In this document: positions 10,190-63,016 of the stretch, piece after piece
Layout of the letters: each line of letters starts with the position of its first letter
How positions within the stretch are numbered: position 1 is the first letter of the stretch
From: Rubrivirga marina
GTDB taxonomy: Bacteria; Bacteroidota; Rhodothermia; Rhodothermales; Rubricoccaceae
Assembly: GCF_002283365.1 (NCBI RefSeq)
Contig: NZ_MQWD01000001.1
Span: forward strand, 2,947,749-3,011,748
Direction: 5' to 3'
DNA length: 64,000 bases
Translations under genes and position numbers: made by a program
The notes under the pieces: model-generated
The model's database searches: none
Told to the model about the DNA's origin: nothing
Seen by the model: the letters and a program-made list of their open reading frames with translations, nothing else

Positions 10190-12307
10190 ATGACCGTCTA
10201 CGACGCCGACCACATCCGCAACGTCGCCCTCGTGGGCCACCAGGGGAGCGGAAAGACGACGCTGGCCGAGGCCATGCTCTTCAGCGCCGGCGCGATCCCG
10301 CGCATGGGGACCGTCGAGGAGGGCTCGACGGCGAGCGACTTCCACGACAGTGAGCGCGAGCGGACGATGTCGGTCTTCACGTCGCTGCTCCACGCCGAGT
10401 GGGAGGGCCACAAGATCAACGTGCTCGACACGCCCGGCTACCTCGACTTCTCGGCCGAGACCATCACGGCCCTCAAAGTCGCCGACACGGCCGTGTTCGT
10501 CATCGACGCGGCCGAAGGCGTCCAGGTGGGGACCGAGCTGGCGTGGACCTACGCCCGCAACACCGAGACGCCAGCGCTCTTCGTCCTCAACAAGCTCGAC
10601 ACCGCCGCCGCCGACTTCGCGACGACGCTGGACAAGGTCCGCGACCGGTTCGGCCGGGCGGCCATCCCGATGCAACTCCCGGGCGGCTCGGGGACGCGGA
10701 CGATCATCGACGTCCTGCTCATGAAGCAGATTCGGTTCGACGACAAAGGGCAGGCCCACTTCGAGCCGATCGCCGACGACTTCAAGGAACGCGCCGACGC
10801 CCTCCACAACGAGCTCGTCGAGTCGATCGCCGAGAACGACGAGGGGCTCATGGACCTCTACTTCGAGAAGGGCGAGCTGACGGAGGACGAGATGCGGAAG
10901 GGCCTCCACCAAGCCATGCTCAATCGCGAGCTGTTCCCCGTCTTCCTGACGGTCGCGAATGAGAACGTTGGCGTGTCACGGTTGATGAGCTTCATCGACA
11001 ACGTGTGCCCGAGCCCGGCCGAGATGCCGCCGCCGCACATGGACGCTGGCTCGGTCTCGGTCGACGCACAGGCCGCGCCGGTGGCGTTCGTGTTCCGGAC
11101 GATGGCCGAGGAGCACGTCGGCGAGTACTCGTACCTCAAGGTCTACGACGGGATGCTGACGCAGGGCCAGGACCTCGAGAACGCGAGCGACTCGTCGATG
11201 GAGCGACTGGGTGCGCTCTACGCCGTGAACGGCAAGGACCGCGACCCCGTGCCGCAGCTCGTGGCCGGCGACGTCGGCGTGACGGTCAAGCTCAAGCACA
11301 CGAGCACCGGCGACACGCTCCGCCAGCGCGGCTCCAGCGCCGTCGTGACGCCGGTCGAGTACCCCGAGCCCCGCATGCGGCTGGCCATCCACGCCGTACA
11401 CCAGGGCGAGGAGGACAAGATGGCGCAGGGGCTCGCCCAGATCGTCAAGGAGGACCCGTCACTGGTGGTCGAGCACGACGCCCACCTCGGCCAGGTCACC
11501 GTCGCAGGACAGGGCGAGATGCACCTCGACATCGCGAAGTACCGCCTCGCCCACCGCGCCGGCGTCGAGGTCGCGTTCGAGCGGCCGAAGGTGAGCTACC
11601 GCGAGACCGTCCGCGGCCGCGCCGAGGCGCGGTACCGCCACAAGAAGCAGACGGGCGGCGCCGGCCAGTTCGCCGACATCTCCCTGCTCGTCGAACCGCT
11701 CGACGGGGAGTTTCAGCCGGAGGGCCAGATGAAGGTCCGCGGCGAGCACACGGCCGAGACCGACTGGGGCTCGAAGGTCCACTTCGTCGACGCCATCGTG
11801 GGCGGCGTCATCGACATGCAGCGGTTCTTCGGGGCCATCCAGAAGGGCGTGGCCGACATGCTGCGCCAGGGGCCGGTCGCCGGCTACCCCGTTGGGGACG
11901 TCCGCGTGGTCGTGTTCGACGGCGGCATGCACTCGGTCGACTCGAACGAGAACGCGTTCAAGACGGCGGCGAAGATGGCGTTCCGCGACGGCTTCCGCGA
12001 CGCGCGGCCGGCGATCCTGGAGCCGATCGTCGAGCTCGAGGTCCTCGTGCCCGAGGCCTACATGGGCGACGTCCTCGGCGACCTCAACACGCGCCGCGCG
12101 CGGATCCAGGGGATGGTAGCGGAGGGCCCGTTCCAGAAGATCGTGGCGCAGGTCCCGGAGGCCGAGCTGTACCGGTACTCGACGTCGCTCCGCTCGATGA
12201 CGCAGGGCCGCGGCCTCCACCGCGCCAGGTTCAGCCACTACGACCCGGTCCCCCGCGACGTACAGGACCAGCTCGTCTCAGGCCGGATGGCGGACGCCGC
12301 GGCCTGA
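10190..12307 (+). CDS. Elongation factor G-like GTPase (EF-G paralogue)
   Basis: A 705-residue translational GTPase with EF-G domain order. G1 is GHQGSGKTT, G3 is DTPGY and G4 is NKLD. The switch I segment reads SERERTMSVFTS instead of the usual ERERGITI, and the gene is not in an rpsL-rpsG-tuf setting. It is therefore more likely an EF-G-2-type paralogue than the main elongation factor, and could act in ribosome recycling or stress translation. ATG 10190 was preferred over an earlier in-frame codon at 10139 because it directly precedes the conserved N-terminus and sits downstream of the predicted promoter. Confidence 0.85.
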   Translation: MTVYDADHIRNVALVGHQGSGKTTLAEAMLFSAGAIPRMGTVEEGSTASDFHDSERERTMSVFTSLLHAEWEGHKINVLDTPGYLDFSAETITALKVADTAVFVIDAAEGVQVGTELAWTYARNTETPALFVLNKLDTAAADFATTLDKVRDRFGRAAIPMQLPGGSGTRTIIDVLLMKQIRFDDKGQAHFEPIADDFKERADALHNELVESIAENDEGLMDLYFEKGELTEDEMRKGLHQAMLNRELFPVFLTVANENVGVSRLMSFIDNVCPSPAEMPPPHMDAGSVSVDAQAAPVAFVFRTMAEEHVGEYSYLKVYDGMLTQGQDLENASDSSMERLGALYAVNGKDRDPVPQLVAGDVGVTVKLKHTSTGDTLRQRGSSAVVTPVEYPEPRMRLAIHAVHQGEEDKMAQGLAQIVKEDPSLVVEHDAHLGQVTVAGQGEMHLDIAKYRLAHRAGVEVAFERPKVSYRETVRGRAEARYRHKKQTGGAGQFADISLLVEPLDGEFQPEGQMKVRGEHTAETDWGSKVHFVDAIVGGVIDMQRFFGAIQKGVADMLRQGPVAGYPVGDVRVVVFDGGMHSVDSNENAFKTAAKMAFRDGFRDARPAILEPIVELEVLVPEAYMGDVLGDLNTRRARIQGMVAEGPFQKIVAQVPEAELYRYSTSLRSMTQGRGLHRARFSHYDPVPRDVQDQLVSGRMADAAA

Positions 12308-55780: not shown

Positions 55781-55910
55781 CCCCAACGAGCGAGGGGCGT
55801 TCAACCGCCGCTGGCCACTGAGCGGTGTGGGCGAGCACGAGGATACGCCGCGGCGCCACCGGGACCGAGGGCGCTCGCTCCAGCTGTCGGCTTGCAACGC
55901 CGGGTTCGGG
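55781..55910 (-). repeat. attC-like cassette site 1
   Basis: A 130-bp site bounded by the cores CCCCAAC (left) and GTTCGGG (right), with inner boxes GCGTTCAACCGCCG and GTCGGCTTGCAACGCC. Read on the minus strand it follows the toxin gene, whose stop is 18 bp away. TATCCTCG (minus) lies at 55838-55845. It is related to sites 6 and 7. Confidence 0.7.
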
Positions 55911-55928
55911 CGCTTCGTGGCGCCGGCC

Positions 55929-56192
55929 CTATCGGTACACGTCTCGCCGGTTCCCCACTTTGACCACCTCGACGACGAGCACGTCGTCGGCGACCGTGTA
56001 GACGATCCGGTATTCGCCCTGCCGGACCCGGTACGCGCCCCGGCCCGTGAGCTTGGTGCAACCGGGCGGACGCGGGTCGTCGGCGAGCGCGCCGATCCGG
56101 TCCACCACGCTCTGGCGGTCCTTCATGCGACCGATGGCTCGGATCTCCTTGGCCGCGCTCCGCTTCACCTCGATCCGGTACCGCCCCGGCAT
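55929..56192 (-). CDS. RelE/ParE-family toxin
   Basis: An 87-residue toxin of the RelE/ParE superfamily (YRIEVKRSAAKEIRAIGRMKDRQSVVDRIGALADDPRPPGCTKLTG…YRVRQGEYRIVYTV…VVEVVKVGNRRDVYR). The RxGxYRIVY core and the C-terminal VGxRRDVY are family hallmarks. Members cleave mRNA on the ribosome or poison gyrase; which applies here is not clear, though the sequence looks more RelE-like. ATG overlaps the antitoxin stop. It forms a gene cassette with the antitoxin between sites 1 and 2. Confidence 0.9.
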   Translation of the reverse strand: MPGRYRIEVKRSAAKEIRAIGRMKDRQSVVDRIGALADDPRPPGCTKLTGRGAYRVRQGEYRIVYTVADDVLVVEVVKVGNRRDVYR

Positions 56193-56428
56193 CAGATGGC
56201 GCCCTCCGCCTTGAGGTCTCGGACGAACGACTCGAACGAGACGGTCGGCTCGTCGGCCCGGTCGCGGAGCGCGGCGAGGTCGTCGGCGTCCTCAGCCAGG
56301 AGCACGCGGACGGCCTCGTTGACCACGTCGGAAACGGACCGGTCGGTCTCGGCCGCCTTGAGGCGGAGCGCCTTATGGAGGGCGGAGTCGAAGTAGACGG
56401 TCGCGCGCTTCGGGCTGGCAGCAGGCAT
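56192..56428 (-). CDS. Ribbon-helix-helix antitoxin
   Basis: A 78-residue antitoxin. The N-terminal half (KRATVYFDSALHKALRLKAAETDRSVSDVVNEAVRVLL) is a ribbon-helix-helix DNA-binding fold, and the C-terminal part (DEPTVSFESFVRDLKAEGAI) should wrap the toxin. It precedes the toxin with an ATGA overlap. An inverted repeat just upstream is a likely autoregulatory operator. Confidence 0.88.
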   Translation of the reverse strand: MPAASPKRATVYFDSALHKALRLKAAETDRSVSDVVNEAVRVLLAEDADDLAALRDRADEPTVSFESFVRDLKAEGAI

Positions 56429-56439
56429 GGTTGTGACTA

Positions 56440-56490: not shown

Positions 56491-56621
56491 CGCGAATGAT
56501 TGATTGGCCGCTTAGCCGCGACGGGCGGCGCTGGCGGCAAGAACGAGCGCAAGGATACGCCGACGCCCGAACGAGCTGAGAACGCTTGCGCCCGGCGTCG
56601 GCCTACAGCGGCTGGTTACGC
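56491..56621 (-). repeat. attC-like cassette site 2
   Basis: A 131-bp site. Inner boxes GGCCGCTTAGCCG (left) and CGTCGGCCTACAGCGGC (right) are clear, and the right core is GTTACGC. The left core is weak (CGCGAAT instead of AAC). The stop codon of the next gene (TAA, 56616-56618) lies inside the right core. Confidence 0.75.
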
Positions 56622-56999
56622 CGCGCGATGAGACCAGCGCCACTTCAAGAGCGGCAACGAGAGAGCCGCACCGGCCAGTCCCGTCACCACGTCCCACAGG
56701 TCTGCGGTTTGCCGCGGCATCGCGAGATGGGCCACTTCGGCCAGAGACACGAGGGCACCGGCGAGAACGACCGACGCGACGGGCGGCGTCGCGGCGGCGA
56801 GCGCCTGCCACGCCGCGAGCGTCCCACCAGCGAAGAAGCTGGGGGCCACGCCGAGCGTCCAGTGTCCACGGATGCCCGCTTCGGACGCCCACGAACGGAG
56901 CGGCCCGACCGCCGCGATCCACAGTACGAACGCGGCGACGACGAACGCGAGCAGCCAGCGGTCGGGATGCCGAAGCCTCGCTACAACGTCGTCGAGCAC
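56616..56999 (-). CDS. VanZ-like small membrane protein (cassette gene)
   Basis: A 127-residue protein with about four transmembrane helices (RWLLAFVVAAFVLWIAAVGPL, FFAGGTLAAWQALAAATPP, SVVLAGALVSLAEVAHLAM, VTGLAGAALSLPLL). The SLAEVAHLAMPRQTADLWDVVTGLAG stretch resembles VanZ-type proteins. GTG 56999 was chosen because earlier in-frame codons lie inside the neighbouring attC-like site. The gene ends within site 2. Confidence 0.65.
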   Translation of the reverse strand: MLDDVVARLRHPDRWLLAFVVAAFVLWIAAVGPLRSWASEAGIRGHWTLGVAPSFFAGGTLAAWQALAAATPPVASVVLAGALVSLAEVAHLAMPRQTADLWDVVTGLAGAALSLPLLKWRWSHRAA

Positions 57000-57016: not shown

Positions 57017-57144
57017 GTGTAACGAGGGGCCGCTTAGCCGCCGGAGGCGATGGCACGGCGGGTGGACGAGCGAAAGTAGGCGCCTTCGCCCGGACGAGCC
57101 AGGAACGCTGAGGCCCCCGGTCGGCCTACAGCGGCGGGTTGGGC
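57017..57144 (-). repeat. attC-like cassette site 3
   Basis: A 128-bp site with cores GTGTAAC and GTTGGGC; the latter fits the classical GTTRRRY. The left box CCGCTTAGCCGCC pairs with CCGCTGTAGGCCGACC (reverse complement of the right box) with three single-base bulges, all on the same arm. TACTTTCG (minus) is at 57071-57078. Confidence 0.82.
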
Positions 57145-57153
57145 CGCCCGGGC

Positions 57154-57663
57154 TCAGCGCGGGTACACCATCTGGTTCCGCTCTGCATGGACCACGAACA
57201 CCTCGTCTTCGAGTCGGCTCACCCACCGCTCCTCGCGCCCCTCCGGGACCCCGAAGACGACGAGGTCCTGACCCCGGTACACGTTGACGACGTCGAGCCC
57301 GCCTTGGGCCGCGATGAGCGCCCGGACGTGCTCCTCGTCCGCCGCACGCCGGACTACGACCTCGACCCCGTCCCCCCGCCACACCCGCGCCGTGTCGACG
57401 AGCGGGTCGGCGGACAGCGCGGCGAGGTAGTCCTCGGGGGCGCCGGAGCGGACGACGGTCTGGACGAGGTACACCGGGGGGAGCGCGACCTGCTCGACCT
57501 CGATGCTGTGCTCGCGGGCGTACGCCTCAAGAAAGGCCGGCTCGACGTATCGGACCGAGGCAACGACCTCTCCGGGGATGAACGGGTCGTCGGACTCGAA
57601 GGCGTCGCACCCAGCGAGGAGCGCCGGAGCGAGTAGGAGTGCGAGAGCGGGGACGGAGCGCAC
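57154..57663 (-). CDS. Lipoprotein (cassette gene)
   Basis: A 169-residue lipoprotein with lipobox LLAGC (Cys19). The mature part contains two similar alpha/beta units (FLEAYAREHSIEVEQVALPPVYLVQTVVRSG and HVRALIAAQGGLDVVNVYRGQDLVVFGV), which could be a ferredoxin-like repeat. No family was recognised. The start GTG 57663 is 90 bp from the left end of site 4, leaving a long leader, and TACCTTCG in site 4 could serve as its -7 box. Confidence 0.68.
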   Translation of the reverse strand: MRSVPALALLLAPALLAGCDAFESDDPFIPGEVVASVRYVEPAFLEAYAREHSIEVEQVALPPVYLVQTVVRSGAPEDYLAALSADPLVDTARVWRGDGVEVVVRRAADEEHVRALIAAQGGLDVVNVYRGQDLVVFGVPEGREERWVSRLEDEVFVVHAERNQMVYPR

Positions 57664-57746
57664 GGTGATCGGGCAGAGGTGAGCCGCAACGGTAGGTCGG
57701 ACGACGAACCTTGTAAAGTGCCAAGCAGAGCGCCCAACGTGAGGCG

Positions 57747-57874
57747 GCCCAACAGCTGGCCGCTTAGCCGCCGGGGCTGGCGGCGCGGCGGGTGGACGAG
57801 CGAAGGTAGGCGCCGGCGCTCGGACGAGACGGGGACGCTGAAGCCCCCGGTCGGCCTACAGCGGCGGGTTCTGC
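57747..57874 (-). repeat. attC-like cassette site 4
   Basis: A 128-bp site with cores GCCCAAC and GTTCTGC. Inner boxes match site 3 exactly over GGCCGCTTAGCCGCC and GGTCGGCCTACAGCGGCGG. The left terminus GTTGGGCCGCC (minus) is identical to the right terminus of site 3, the other end of the same cassette. Confidence 0.85.
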
Positions 57875-57895
57875 CGCCCGCTTCCGTCGTGTCCT

Positions 57896-58444
57896 TCACT
57901 CGCTCCTGGACAGCTCGAACCGCTGGCGGTAGCAGACCCACCTCTCCTCGTGCTCCCCGTAGCGGACCACCACTTTCCCTCGGCTGAAGAGCTGCTCGCT
58001 GAGGAACGACTCTGGCCCGGTGGGAATGAGGGTGTACGTGACCACGATGTGCCGGAAAGAGGAATCCCCTCCTGGGATGACGGCTCGGGCATCGACTCGA
58101 CCGCCCACCACGCGGTAGTTCCCTCGTGAGACGATCGGGCCGTAGTCGTCCCGGGATGTGAGCGAAGTCCGCATGTCCTCGACGGACCGCGCCACGAAGA
58201 AGTCTCCGTCGGTAGAGAAGGCCATCGCACGGCCGTTTAGGGTTCCCTCCCCGTCCGTAACGCGGGGGTCCGTCCGGCCGCATGACTCGTTCCCACCGAC
58301 CGCGACGTAGACGCCAACGTTCGAGAACGGGAGGGCAGACGCCACGGAGGGTTCGGCGTGGAGCCGCCCGCTCGTACCCCGCCAAGCGCACCCGGCAGTG
58401 ATAGCCGTCAGGAGGACAAAAACAGAGAGCGCGGGGCGGTTCAA
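57896..58444 (-). CDS. Lipoprotein (cassette gene)
   Basis: A 182-residue protein if started at TTG 58444, which begins a lipoprotein signal (NRPALSVFVLLTAITAGC). The mature part is beta-rich (FSNVGVYVAVGGNESCG, VVVRYGEHEERWVCYRQRFEL). There is no ATG in a suitable place, since the frame upstream runs into attC site 5. It ends 22 bp from site 4. No family was recognised. Confidence 0.58.
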   Translation of the reverse strand: MNRPALSVFVLLTAITAGCAWRGTSGRLHAEPSVASALPFSNVGVYVAVGGNESCGRTDPRVTDGEGTLNGRAMAFSTDGDFFVARSVEDMRTSLTSRDDYGPIVSRGNYRVVGGRVDARAVIPGGDSSFRHIVVTYTLIPTGPESFLSEQLFSRGKVVVRYGEHEERWVCYRQRFELSRSE

Positions 58445-58528
58445 CGGACGGGACGCGAGGGACTCGCTCCAGCATAGGTCGGTGCGGGAGCGGCCCTCTG
58501 GTGCAACCGAACTACAGGCGCCGGGGCG

Positions 58529-58654
58529 GCAGAACGATTGGCGATTCAGCCGCCTGAGGCGGCGCGACGGTGATCCGAAGCTAGGAGCGGCGCCGACGCC
58601 AGCAACGGCCGAGAGCGCTGACGCCCCCGGTCGGCCTACAGCGGCGGGTTCTGC
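58529..58654 (-). repeat. attC-like cassette site 5
   Basis: A 126-bp site with cores GCAGAAC and GTTCTGC (perfect complements). The left box is GGCGATTCAGCCGCC; the right box is GGTCGGCCTACAGC. TAGCTTCG (minus, 58576-58583) has a TTG 19 bases upstream (58603-58605), so a full promoter-like pair lies inside the site, pointing at the next cassette. Confidence 0.85.
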
Positions 58655-58661
58655 GTCCCCG

Positions 58662-59265: not shown

Positions 59266-59389
59266 GCAGAACGAGTGGGCGTTCAGCGGCCGGCGGCCGC
59301 TGGCGGGGTGGACGAAGCTACGGGGGGGACGGCGTTGAATCGGTCGATGAAGCTGACGCCGCCGGTCCGCCTGCAACGCCGGGTTCTAC
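59266..59389 (-). repeat. attC-like cassette site 6
   Basis: A 124-bp site with cores GCAGAAC and GTTCTAC. Inner boxes are GTGGGCGTTCAGCGGCCGGCGG and CCGGTCCGCCTGCAACGCC. TAGCTTCG (minus) is at 59313-59320. The left terminus GTTCTGCGTCC (minus) matches the right terminus of site 5. Confidence 0.85.
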
Positions 59390-59395
59390 TGCCAG

Positions 59396-59594: not shown

Positions 59595-59718
59595 GTAGAA
59601 CGAGTGGGCGTTCAGCGGCCGGCGGCCGCTGGCGGTGTGGCCGAAGCTACGCGGCCGATGGCGCCGCGACGGTCGAGGCGACTGATGCCGCCGGTCCGCC
59701 TGCAACGCCGGGTTCTGC
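59595..59718 (-). repeat. attC-like cassette site 7
   Basis: A 124-bp near-duplicate of site 6 (the first 50 bases differ at only a few positions). Cores are GTAGAAC and GTTCTGC. TAGCTTCG (minus) is at 59642-59649. The left terminus GTTCTACTGCCA (minus) matches the right terminus of site 6 over 12 bases. Confidence 0.86.
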
Positions 59719-59726
59719 CGCCATGG

Positions 59727-59962: not shown

Positions 59963-60019
59963 GCAGAACAAATTGCGGCTCACCGGCGCGTCCGCGTCCG
60001 GTGCAGACGCGGGTTCTGT
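59963..60019 (-). repeat. attC-like cassette site 8 (short form)
   Basis: Only 57 bp, with cores GCAGAAC and GTTCTGT. Inner boxes TTGCGGCTCACCGGCG and GTCCGGTGCAGACGC pair directly with almost no central region, like the shortest known attC sites. It is the only site with no promoter-like centre. Confidence 0.8.
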
Positions 60020-60031
60020 GGCCGAGGGCAC

Positions 60032-60628: not shown

Positions 60629-60750
60629 GCAGAAGGGGGCCGCTTAGCCGCGACGGGCAGCGCTGCGGTAGGGACGAGCGACAGGATACGCTGACGCATG
60701 GACCAGCCGACCCCGCTCACGCCCGGCGTCGGCCCAGCGGCGGGTTCTGC
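60629..60750 (-). repeat. attC-like cassette site 9
   Basis: A 122-bp site. The left core is GCAGAAG (one base from AAC), the right core GTTCTGC. Inner boxes GGCCGCTTAGCCGCG and CGTCGGCCCAGCGGCGG. TATCCTGT (minus) is at 60681-60688. Confidence 0.78.
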
Positions 60751-60766
60751 GGCCGCGGCAAAGGCC

Positions 60767-61545: not shown

Positions 61546-61670
61546 GCAGAACGATTTGCGATTCAGCCGCCGAGAGGTGAGGGCGCGGCGGCGGGACGAG
61601 GCTATGACAGGAGCGCCGTTCGGACGAGTCCGGAACGCGGACCCTCTCGGTCTGCAAGCGCGGGTTCTAC
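61546..61670 (-). repeat. attC-like cassette site 10
   Basis: A 125-bp site with cores GCAGAAC and GTTCTAC. The left part GATTTGCGATTCAGCCGCC matches site 5, and the right part GGTCTGCAAGCGCGG is nearer to sites 6-7, so it looks like a hybrid. TAGCCTCG (minus) is at 61597-61604. Confidence 0.82.
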
Positions 61671-61702
61671 CATACGGTGGGATATTCCGGTATGAGCGTG
61701 GC

Positions 61703-62103: not shown

Positions 62104-62230
62104 GTAGAACGAGTGGCCGCTTAGCCGCGACGGGTGGCGCTGGCGGCAGGAACGCTCGACAGGATACGCCGACGCTCTGACGAGCCAAGAACGCTCGCGC
62201 CCGGCGTAGGCCTACAGCGGCGAGTTCTGC
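62104..62230 (-). repeat. attC-like cassette site 11
   Basis: A 127-bp site with cores GTAGAAC and GTTCTGC. Inner boxes GTGGCCGCTTAGCCGCG and CGTAGGCCTACAGCGGCG. TATCCTGT (minus, 62159-62166) has TTG 19 bases upstream (62186-62188). The last codons and the TAG stop of the next gene (62212) lie inside the site. Confidence 0.84.
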
Positions 62231-62796
62231 CGCCCCGCCCCCGACGGCCTGTAGGTCAGCGCCGTGACGCCCGTGTCGAACGACCGAGCCTCGACGAGGT
62301 CGAGCGACGCCCGCTCGCTCTCGAACAGCCGCTTCCCCTGCCCCAGCACGACGGGGTACACGAGGAGCCGGTACTCGTCGACCAGGCCCGCCCGGACGAG
62401 CGAGCGGACGAGCGTCGCGCTCCCGAACACGAGGAGGTCCCCGCCCGCCCCACCCTTCAGCGACCGGACGGCGGCCTTGGGGTCGTCCCCCAGGTGGCGG
62501 CCGTTCCAGCCCCTCCGGTCCACCTCGCCCGGACCGAGCGTCGTCGTAGCGACGTGCTTCGGGAGCGCGTTGATCCGCTCCGCGTACCCGTCCTCGCTCG
62601 TCCTCGACGCCCACGCCTCGGCGAAAGCCTCGAACGTGACTCGGCCGAGGACGAGGGCGTCGGCGGCGAACAGCTCGTCCCGCTTGTAGGCGGCGAGCTC
62701 GTCCGACCAGTAGGGCATCGTCCACATCGGGTCCTCCATGACCCCGTCGAGCGAGAGGTACTCGGAGACGACGAGACGGCGGGGGCCGTTGTCCAT
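62212..62796 (-). CDS. RibD-C/dihydrofolate reductase-family protein (cassette gene)
   Basis: A 194-residue NADPH-dependent reductase-like protein of the YyaP/YwjB group. It begins RRLVVSEYLSLDGVMEDP and has ADALVLGRVTFEAFAEAW, GGAGGDLLVFGSATLVRSLVRAGLVDEYRLLVYPVVLGQGKRLF and a closing VTALTYRP. These proteins resemble the RibD C-terminal domain and DHFR, but their substrates are mostly unknown. The C-terminus (GAGRQNSPL) is encoded by the attC-like site, suggesting the original gene ended slightly earlier. Confidence 0.82.
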   Translation of the reverse strand: MDNGPRRLVVSEYLSLDGVMEDPMWTMPYWSDELAAYKRDELFAADALVLGRVTFEAFAEAWASRTSEDGYAERINALPKHVATTTLGPGEVDRRGWNGRHLGDDPKAAVRSLKGGAGGDLLVFGSATLVRSLVRAGLVDEYRLLVYPVVLGQGKRLFESERASLDLVEARSFDTGVTALTYRPSGAGRQNSPL

Positions 62797-62878: not shown

Positions 62879-63002
62879 GCAGAACAGTTTGCGGCTCACC
62901 CGCGAAACGCGGTAGGCCTCTCGAATGAGGCAAGTTCAGTGACAGCGCTGGGACGAGGCGAGACGGTCGAGCGTTTCGTCGGCGTGCAGCCTCGAGTCAT
63001 GC
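62879..63002 (-). repeat. attC-like cassette site 12
   Basis: A 124-bp site with left core GCAGAAC and a degenerate right core GTCATGC. Inner boxes TTGCGGCTCACCCGCG and GTCGGCGTGCAGCC match short site 8, but the centre is longer and lacks a clear promoter-like box. It is the last site before the right edge. Confidence 0.7.
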
Positions 63003-63016
63003 CGCACCTCCCGGGC

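Follow-up and report, generated by a model that had tools for sequence, protein, structure and literature searches.

Sites 3 and 4 belonged to a chromosomal integron array of 22 attC sites (array 2), with 12 sites in the window (the whole stretch of 64,000 nucleotides that was analysed) and 10 beyond it. The sites were located with a covariance model, which was built from array-2 sites and used to search the arrays, the window, and the genome. The sites of the window were annotated on the minus strand as follows: site 1 at the distal end of the array, 55786..55912 (79.9 bits); site 2, 56496..56623 (108.3 bits); site 3, 57018..57146 (112.6 bits); site 4, 57748..57876 (108.6 bits); site 5, 58530..58656 (101.2 bits); site 6, 59267..59391 (113.5 bits); site 7, 59596..59720 (105.1 bits); site 8, a short form of 58 nt, 59964..60021 (38 bits); site 9, with a degenerate R' AAC, 60630..60752 (92.4 bits); site 10, 61547..61672 (87.9 bits); site 11, 62105..62232 (115.2 bits); and site 12, with a degenerate R'' box (GTC), 62880..63004 (57.6 bits). 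The search gave 37 rows of at least 38 bits in the arrays, all folding on the plus strand, and the next best row scored 15 bits. These rows represented 35 distinct places, because locus L009 overlaps the window. Genome-wide, the model matched 39 places, the last one weakly. Rfam had no match in the window.

The site-3 cassette carried a minus-strand gene at 57154..57663 encoding a protein of 169 aa with a lipoprotein-like N-terminus, for which no Pfam match was obtained. The gene of the site-4 cassette was at 57896..58462, also on the minus strand. The distal cassette contained a ParE-family toxin gene (55929..56192, minus strand), and a probable antitoxin ORF was read by eye just upstream of it at about 56200-56430. 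A second array of the genome (array 1) had 13 attC sites by our own count from the covariance model search. A cassette gene with a RibD_C domain (dihydrofolate-reductase-like) was present at 62212-62796 of the window, and a similar-looking frame was seen by eye in array 1 (L010, about 11230-11830). Further attC matches of 41-105 bits, found far from both integrases at C1:3498442-3499315, C1:3658294, and C1:1537753, are possibly small orphan cassette clusters.

Site 3 had the minus strand as its canonical top strand and the plus strand as its folded bottom strand. The R' side AAC was at 57021-57023 and the UCS at 57024-57028, followed by the left arm L' GCCGCTTAGCCGCC at 57029-57042, the right arm L'' GGTCGGCCTACAGCGGC at 57119-57135, and the R'' side GTT at 57138-57140. 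Three extrahelical bases were present in the right arm: T57121, C57125 (or 57126, the same letter), and C57129. The exact position of the middle extra C was ambiguous by one, because this C sits in a CC pair. Site 4 had the same anatomy, with R' side AAC at 57751-57753, UCS at 57754-57758, L' at 57759-57772, L'' at 57849-57865, R'' side GTT at 57868-57870, and the right-arm extrahelical bases T57851, C57855 (or 57856), and C57859. With the AAC/GTT boxes as anchors, the plus strand of both sites read AAC-N5-GCCGCTTAGCCGCC ... GG-T-CGG-C-CTA-C-AGCGGC-GG-GTT, and the bulge pattern was 5'-T-N3-C-N3-C-N8-GTT. The arms were aligned by dynamic programming, independently of the covariance model; each site gave 16 pairs, 0 mismatches, and 0 left and 3 right bulges. 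The preliminary description had paired the left box with a longer right box carrying three extra bases on the L'' arm only. Both boxes were found in their places, and the bulge counts bore out the one-armed arrangement. The extra bases, described there as G, G, and A on the minus strand, are the same bases as T, C, and C on the folding plus strand.

The bulges were conserved in an alignment of 16 sites of array 2, in which the three bulge columns were T in 16/16, C in 15/16, and C in 16/16 sites. The structure pairs were standard in 92.5% of cases, and 29 cells had changed on both sides, a value reached by none of 500 shuffles. Covariation was 0.285 compared with 0.112 in the shuffles (0/500), and pairing was only 24–48% when the partner was slid by 1 to 3 columns. 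The arms GCCGCT/AGCGGC, GGCGTT/AACGCC, and GCGATT/AAGCGC alternated between sites, with the bulges constant. The three AAC/GTT pairs were unchanged in 13 to 15 of the 16 aligned sites, and helix 1 was 83% paired. The outer bases of site 3 (GCCCAAC on the minus strand) matched RYYYAAC/GTTRRRY; many sites carried GCAGAAC/GTTCTGC, which is two positions off this consensus. Site lengths ranged from 58 to about 135 nt with a variable terminal structure, and the attC criterion is 57–142 nt.

The same asymmetry was found when the genome and its relatives were taken together. Among 91 distinct sites, 70 had exactly 0 left and 3 right bulges, and 12 had 0 left and 2 right bulges; thus 82 sites had two or three bulges on the right and none on the left. 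Right-arm bulges outnumbered left-arm bulges in 87 of the 91 sites. When 128-nt stretches were drawn at random from the window, only 2 of 3000 reached the median score. This control permitted a longer right arm and so leaned slightly toward right bulges, and its commonest outcome was still no bulge. All copies are related in sequence, and some of the conservation is plain ancestry, as would be expected if the sites were no more than dispersed inverted repeats, either REP/MITE-like or terminator hairpins, whose bulges were inherited by chance from one ancestor. However, the pairs flanking the bulges changed on both sides together while the bulges stayed, the copies alternated one by one with minus-strand genes next to an integron integrase, entire cassettes bounded by AAC had been transferred between the two arrays, and the initial 55 kb of the window contained no match over 15.1 bits. 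An origin as dispersed repeats is therefore highly improbable.

The folding check suggested in the preliminary description was passed only in part. Free DNA folding of site 7 (s7) gave a textbook hairpin with three 3'-arm bulges, and b1, b6, and other sites gave such a hairpin as well. For sites 3 and 4, however, the minimum-energy folds of the bottom strands were different ones. Since the hairpin was missed in sites 3 and 4 and the outcome was mixed elsewhere, free minimum-energy folding neither proves nor refutes the bulge claim, and constrained folding and covariation were therefore used. With the stem imposed, sites 3 and 4 each had a recombinogenic-stem probability of about 0.02, within a range of 2e-8 to 0.87 over all sites. 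The pfold of the bottom strand exceeded that of the top strand in only 24 of 35 sites, and in sites 3 and 4 the top-strand pfold was the higher. The bottom strand was more stable than the top strand in 35/35 sites, with a mean of −3.15 kcal/mol; the corresponding values for 300 control stretches of the same region were +0.51 and 45%. Folding alone is an unsafe test, as the free fold of sites 3 and 4 hides the hairpin.

The integron integrase of array 2 was found on the plus strand at C1:3023011-3023988, 11 kb right of the window (TIGR02249, 379.9 bits, cut-off 265). Its frame was intact, and the catalytic residues R, K, H, R, H, and Y were all present. The closest solved structure was Vibrio integrase 2A3V (sequence match, 4.8e-65). 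A second intI, at C1:223689, scored 434 bits, also over the TIGR02249 cut-off, and adjoined array 1. A candidate simple attI site, GCGCGGTAGAAC, was read by eye at about L009:13058-13069, and the same motif was seen before the array-1 intI. The orientation (INDEPENDENTLY) was uniform: cassette genes were on the minus strand, pointing away from intI on the plus strand, and all 22 attC were on the plus strand. Array 1 had the same geometry relative to its own intI. A long minus-strand ORF directly behind the array-1 intI (L001:2491-3921) resembled, by eye, a Y-family DNA polymerase of the UmuC type.

Recombination footprints were the strongest evidence of orientation. The site-3 cassette (57021-57753, attC 3 and gene) was also present in array 1 at L010 16687-17419 in nearly identical form, with a single base different by eye; identity began at the site-3 AAC and stopped just past the site-4 AAC. 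The stretch 57751-58658 was identical to array 1 at L010 8054-8961 in 907 of 908 positions, so the exchange was recent. Its left edge was at AAC, and its right edge was just after attC 5, not at the attC 5 AAC. AttC 5 itself was nearly identical in both arrays (58530-58656; L010:8833-8959) with different genes after it, and identity stopped just past the R'' box. A third cassette was duplicated within array 1 and was bounded on either side by an AAC box. Since breakpoints fell at AAC boxes, the mobile unit is the gene and then its attC on the minus strand, with the crossover in the plus-strand R' box. With intI on the plus strand and the cassettes on the minus strand, the bottom strand that recombines is therefore the plus strand, and the reading direction of the array is minus. 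The minus orientation, the same as that of the genes, had been proposed from the bulges, and it agreed with two independent observations, the intI strand and the exchange breakpoints at R' AAC boxes.

The intact integrase with its full set of catalytic residues, the single difference in 908 bases shared with array 1, which points to recent exchange, and the complete boxes of most sites also weigh against the reading that the attC sites are genuine but fossil, with recombination ceased and the bulges left as relics. That reading draws on the decayed R boxes of sites 9 and 12, on the IS1111-type elements that interrupt three attC sites across both arrays, and on the unusual residues of the array-2 integrase at two equivalents of G20'' contacts (W157H and Y210H, Vibrio numbering). 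It is quite unlikely.

The insertion elements were three IS110-family copies (IS1111-like, with a non-coding region after the transposase) at L009:11366-12782, L010:9354-10770, and L010:13077-14436, corresponding to genome positions C1:3021114, 214353, and 218076. These are all the copies in the genome, and each interrupted an attC at one shared position, with the L'' arm on one side and the R'' GTT box on the other; two of them were identical, and the third was 79% identical. They resembled the attC-targeting IS1111-attC group (PMC11187229), here in a distant lineage. A comparable junction (GAGATACTTCC ... GGGGTTATGC) flanked some 400 bp in a fourth attC, at L009:7078-7475. No transposase ORF was noticed in this insert, which resembles a deleted version or a non-autonomous relative of the IS1111-like element.

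The spacing of the bulges was compared with known attC sites. In 226 Vibrio attC sites (a set that includes a few sites from other gammaproteobacteria), the bases before GTT were G at −9 in 219, T at −13 in 206, and T at −17 in 212. In 34 sites of the genome under study, they were C at −9 in 33, C at −13 in 31, and T at −17 in 31. The VCR of Vibrio superintegrons, whose extrahelical bases were named G16, T20, and T24 by Bouvier et al. (Bouvier 2009, PMC2727003), thus share with these sites three L''-arm extrahelical bases at 9, 13, and 17 nt before GTT, with identical N3-N3-N8 spacing. Sites of about 125–130 nt with a long variable terminal structure, one gene per cassette, and an intI divergent from the array are also common to both. 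The bases themselves differ (G, T, T in VCR and C, C, T here), and the present array has GC-rich arms and is far smaller (22 sites). The view of the bulges as attC extrahelical bases was upheld: they matched the Vibrio offsets, were invariant amid covarying pairs, and lay on the L'' arm. It was confirmed that sites 3 and 4 are real integron attC hairpins, in which the bulged arm marks the strand used by the integrase.

Sites 3 and 4 can be identified, with a probability of about 96%, as attC sites of a sedentary chromosomal integron in which the one-armed bulges, read by the integrase, set the cassette direction as minus, away from intI. The anatomy, conservation, and covariation of the bulges, the intact integrase gene, and the exchange footprints were observed directly. 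The steps of this process are modelled on published work (Bouvier 2009; Larouche & Roy 2011), from which the single-strand chemistry, the flipping of bases into integrase pockets, and present-day activity are taken. Each cassette comprises one minus-strand gene (or a toxin-antitoxin pair) and then attC. When the plus (bottom) strand is single-stranded, L' would pair with L'' and R' with R'', and three bases would protrude from the L'' arm. IntI would bind the folded plus strand, and the protruding bases, the first above all, would dictate the choice of this strand. The cut would be made in the R' box, at AA|C in 57021-57023 and 57751-57753; one strand would be exchanged with attI or another attC, and replication would resolve the product.

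The first extrahelical base decides strand choice in VCR, and moving it alone shifted the recombination point (Bouvier 2009, PMC2727003). This result weighs against strand choice made mainly by the asymmetric central spacer with bulges insufficient on their own for orientation, although the VCR spacer can still impose strand choice after deletion of the extrahelical bases (Bouvier 2009, PMC2727003). The central spacer was likewise unpaired and asymmetric, 5 nt versus 2 nt, throughout the aligned sites here. A leading role of the spacer is rather unlikely, and the orientation call would be unaffected by it, because spacer and bulges point the same way in these sites.

In the literature, the first extrahelical base is described as "almost exclusively a G", and replacing it cost at most 2-fold in an attI assay. 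Here C stood in place of this usual G in 33 of the 34 sites of the genome and in 50 of 54 related sites. The low cost of replacement makes G a usual feature of attC, not a defining one. The relatives were drawn from 60 related genomes (own genome included), 22 with model matches and 24 with an IntI over the cut-off. Since the training sites of the covariance model carried C, the same loci were searched again with a base-agnostic motif; C 8 nt before GTT again dominated, with one clear T. This motif scan works for the present lineage but performs less well on VCR, probably through too narrow spacer limits, so the positional count served as the Vibrio control. More distant relatives had two extrahelical bases, T-N6-C.

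A C at the first extrahelical position is also found in attC-dfrA1 (A-N7-8-C), in blaVIM-2, and in an engineered T-N6-C site. In excision tests, several integrases recombined these sites well, and a C at this position was tolerated or even favoured in the laboratory (Larouche & Roy 2011, PMC3053210). They are isolated cassettes or mutants, whereas here the C is fixed across arrays and related genera. In the integrases, the T-pocket residues (P232, H240, and H241, Vibrio numbering) were unchanged in 13 enzymes of this order, and T is the conserved base at the corresponding attC position. The residues that contact the extrahelical bases were considered as the cause of the change from G to C and rejected, because most relatives keep the same K, R, K, Y, W set; these residues were much alike across relatives except for W157H and Y210H in the array-2 integrase. 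As a tentative proposal that is less probable than not, the strand-discriminating base may have been fixed as C through whole arrays in this order with the three-base VCR spacing kept, and the integrases may have adapted, the array-2 IntI carrying H at the equivalents of W157 and Y210, both contacts of the flipped G.

The replication context was also considered. The dnaA gene was at C1:441579, and sign changes of the GC skew fell at 0.25–0.48 Mb and at about 3.4–3.6 Mb. In a published survey, 25 of 30 chromosomal integrons lay in one of two replication arrangements, and the other arrangement had at most 22 cassettes (PMC5371416). The skew was sampled at 20 points, so this reading serves as a lead only. 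A complete chromosomal integron outside Proteobacteria has been reported for Salinibacter ruber M1 (Bacteroidetes/Chlorobi group) with IntegronFinder 2.0 (PMC9024848).

The one-armed bulge finding is mostly established integron biology, to which the C seen across the lineage adds a modest variant that deserves to be recorded. The one-armed layout of VCR and mobile integrons, in which three extrahelical bases follow one another at fixed 4-nt steps, extends to a distant GC-rich lineage; therefore, the orientation of an array can be read there from the letters of its sites. With two arrays that exchange cassettes, the genome keeps its own record of where crossovers fell. The C shared by the lineage offers a natural experiment as to which property of the base counts, being flipped out or being a G. 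If true, the fixed C together with an adapted IntI would show an integrase and its attC sites co-evolving in nature at the base of strand choice.
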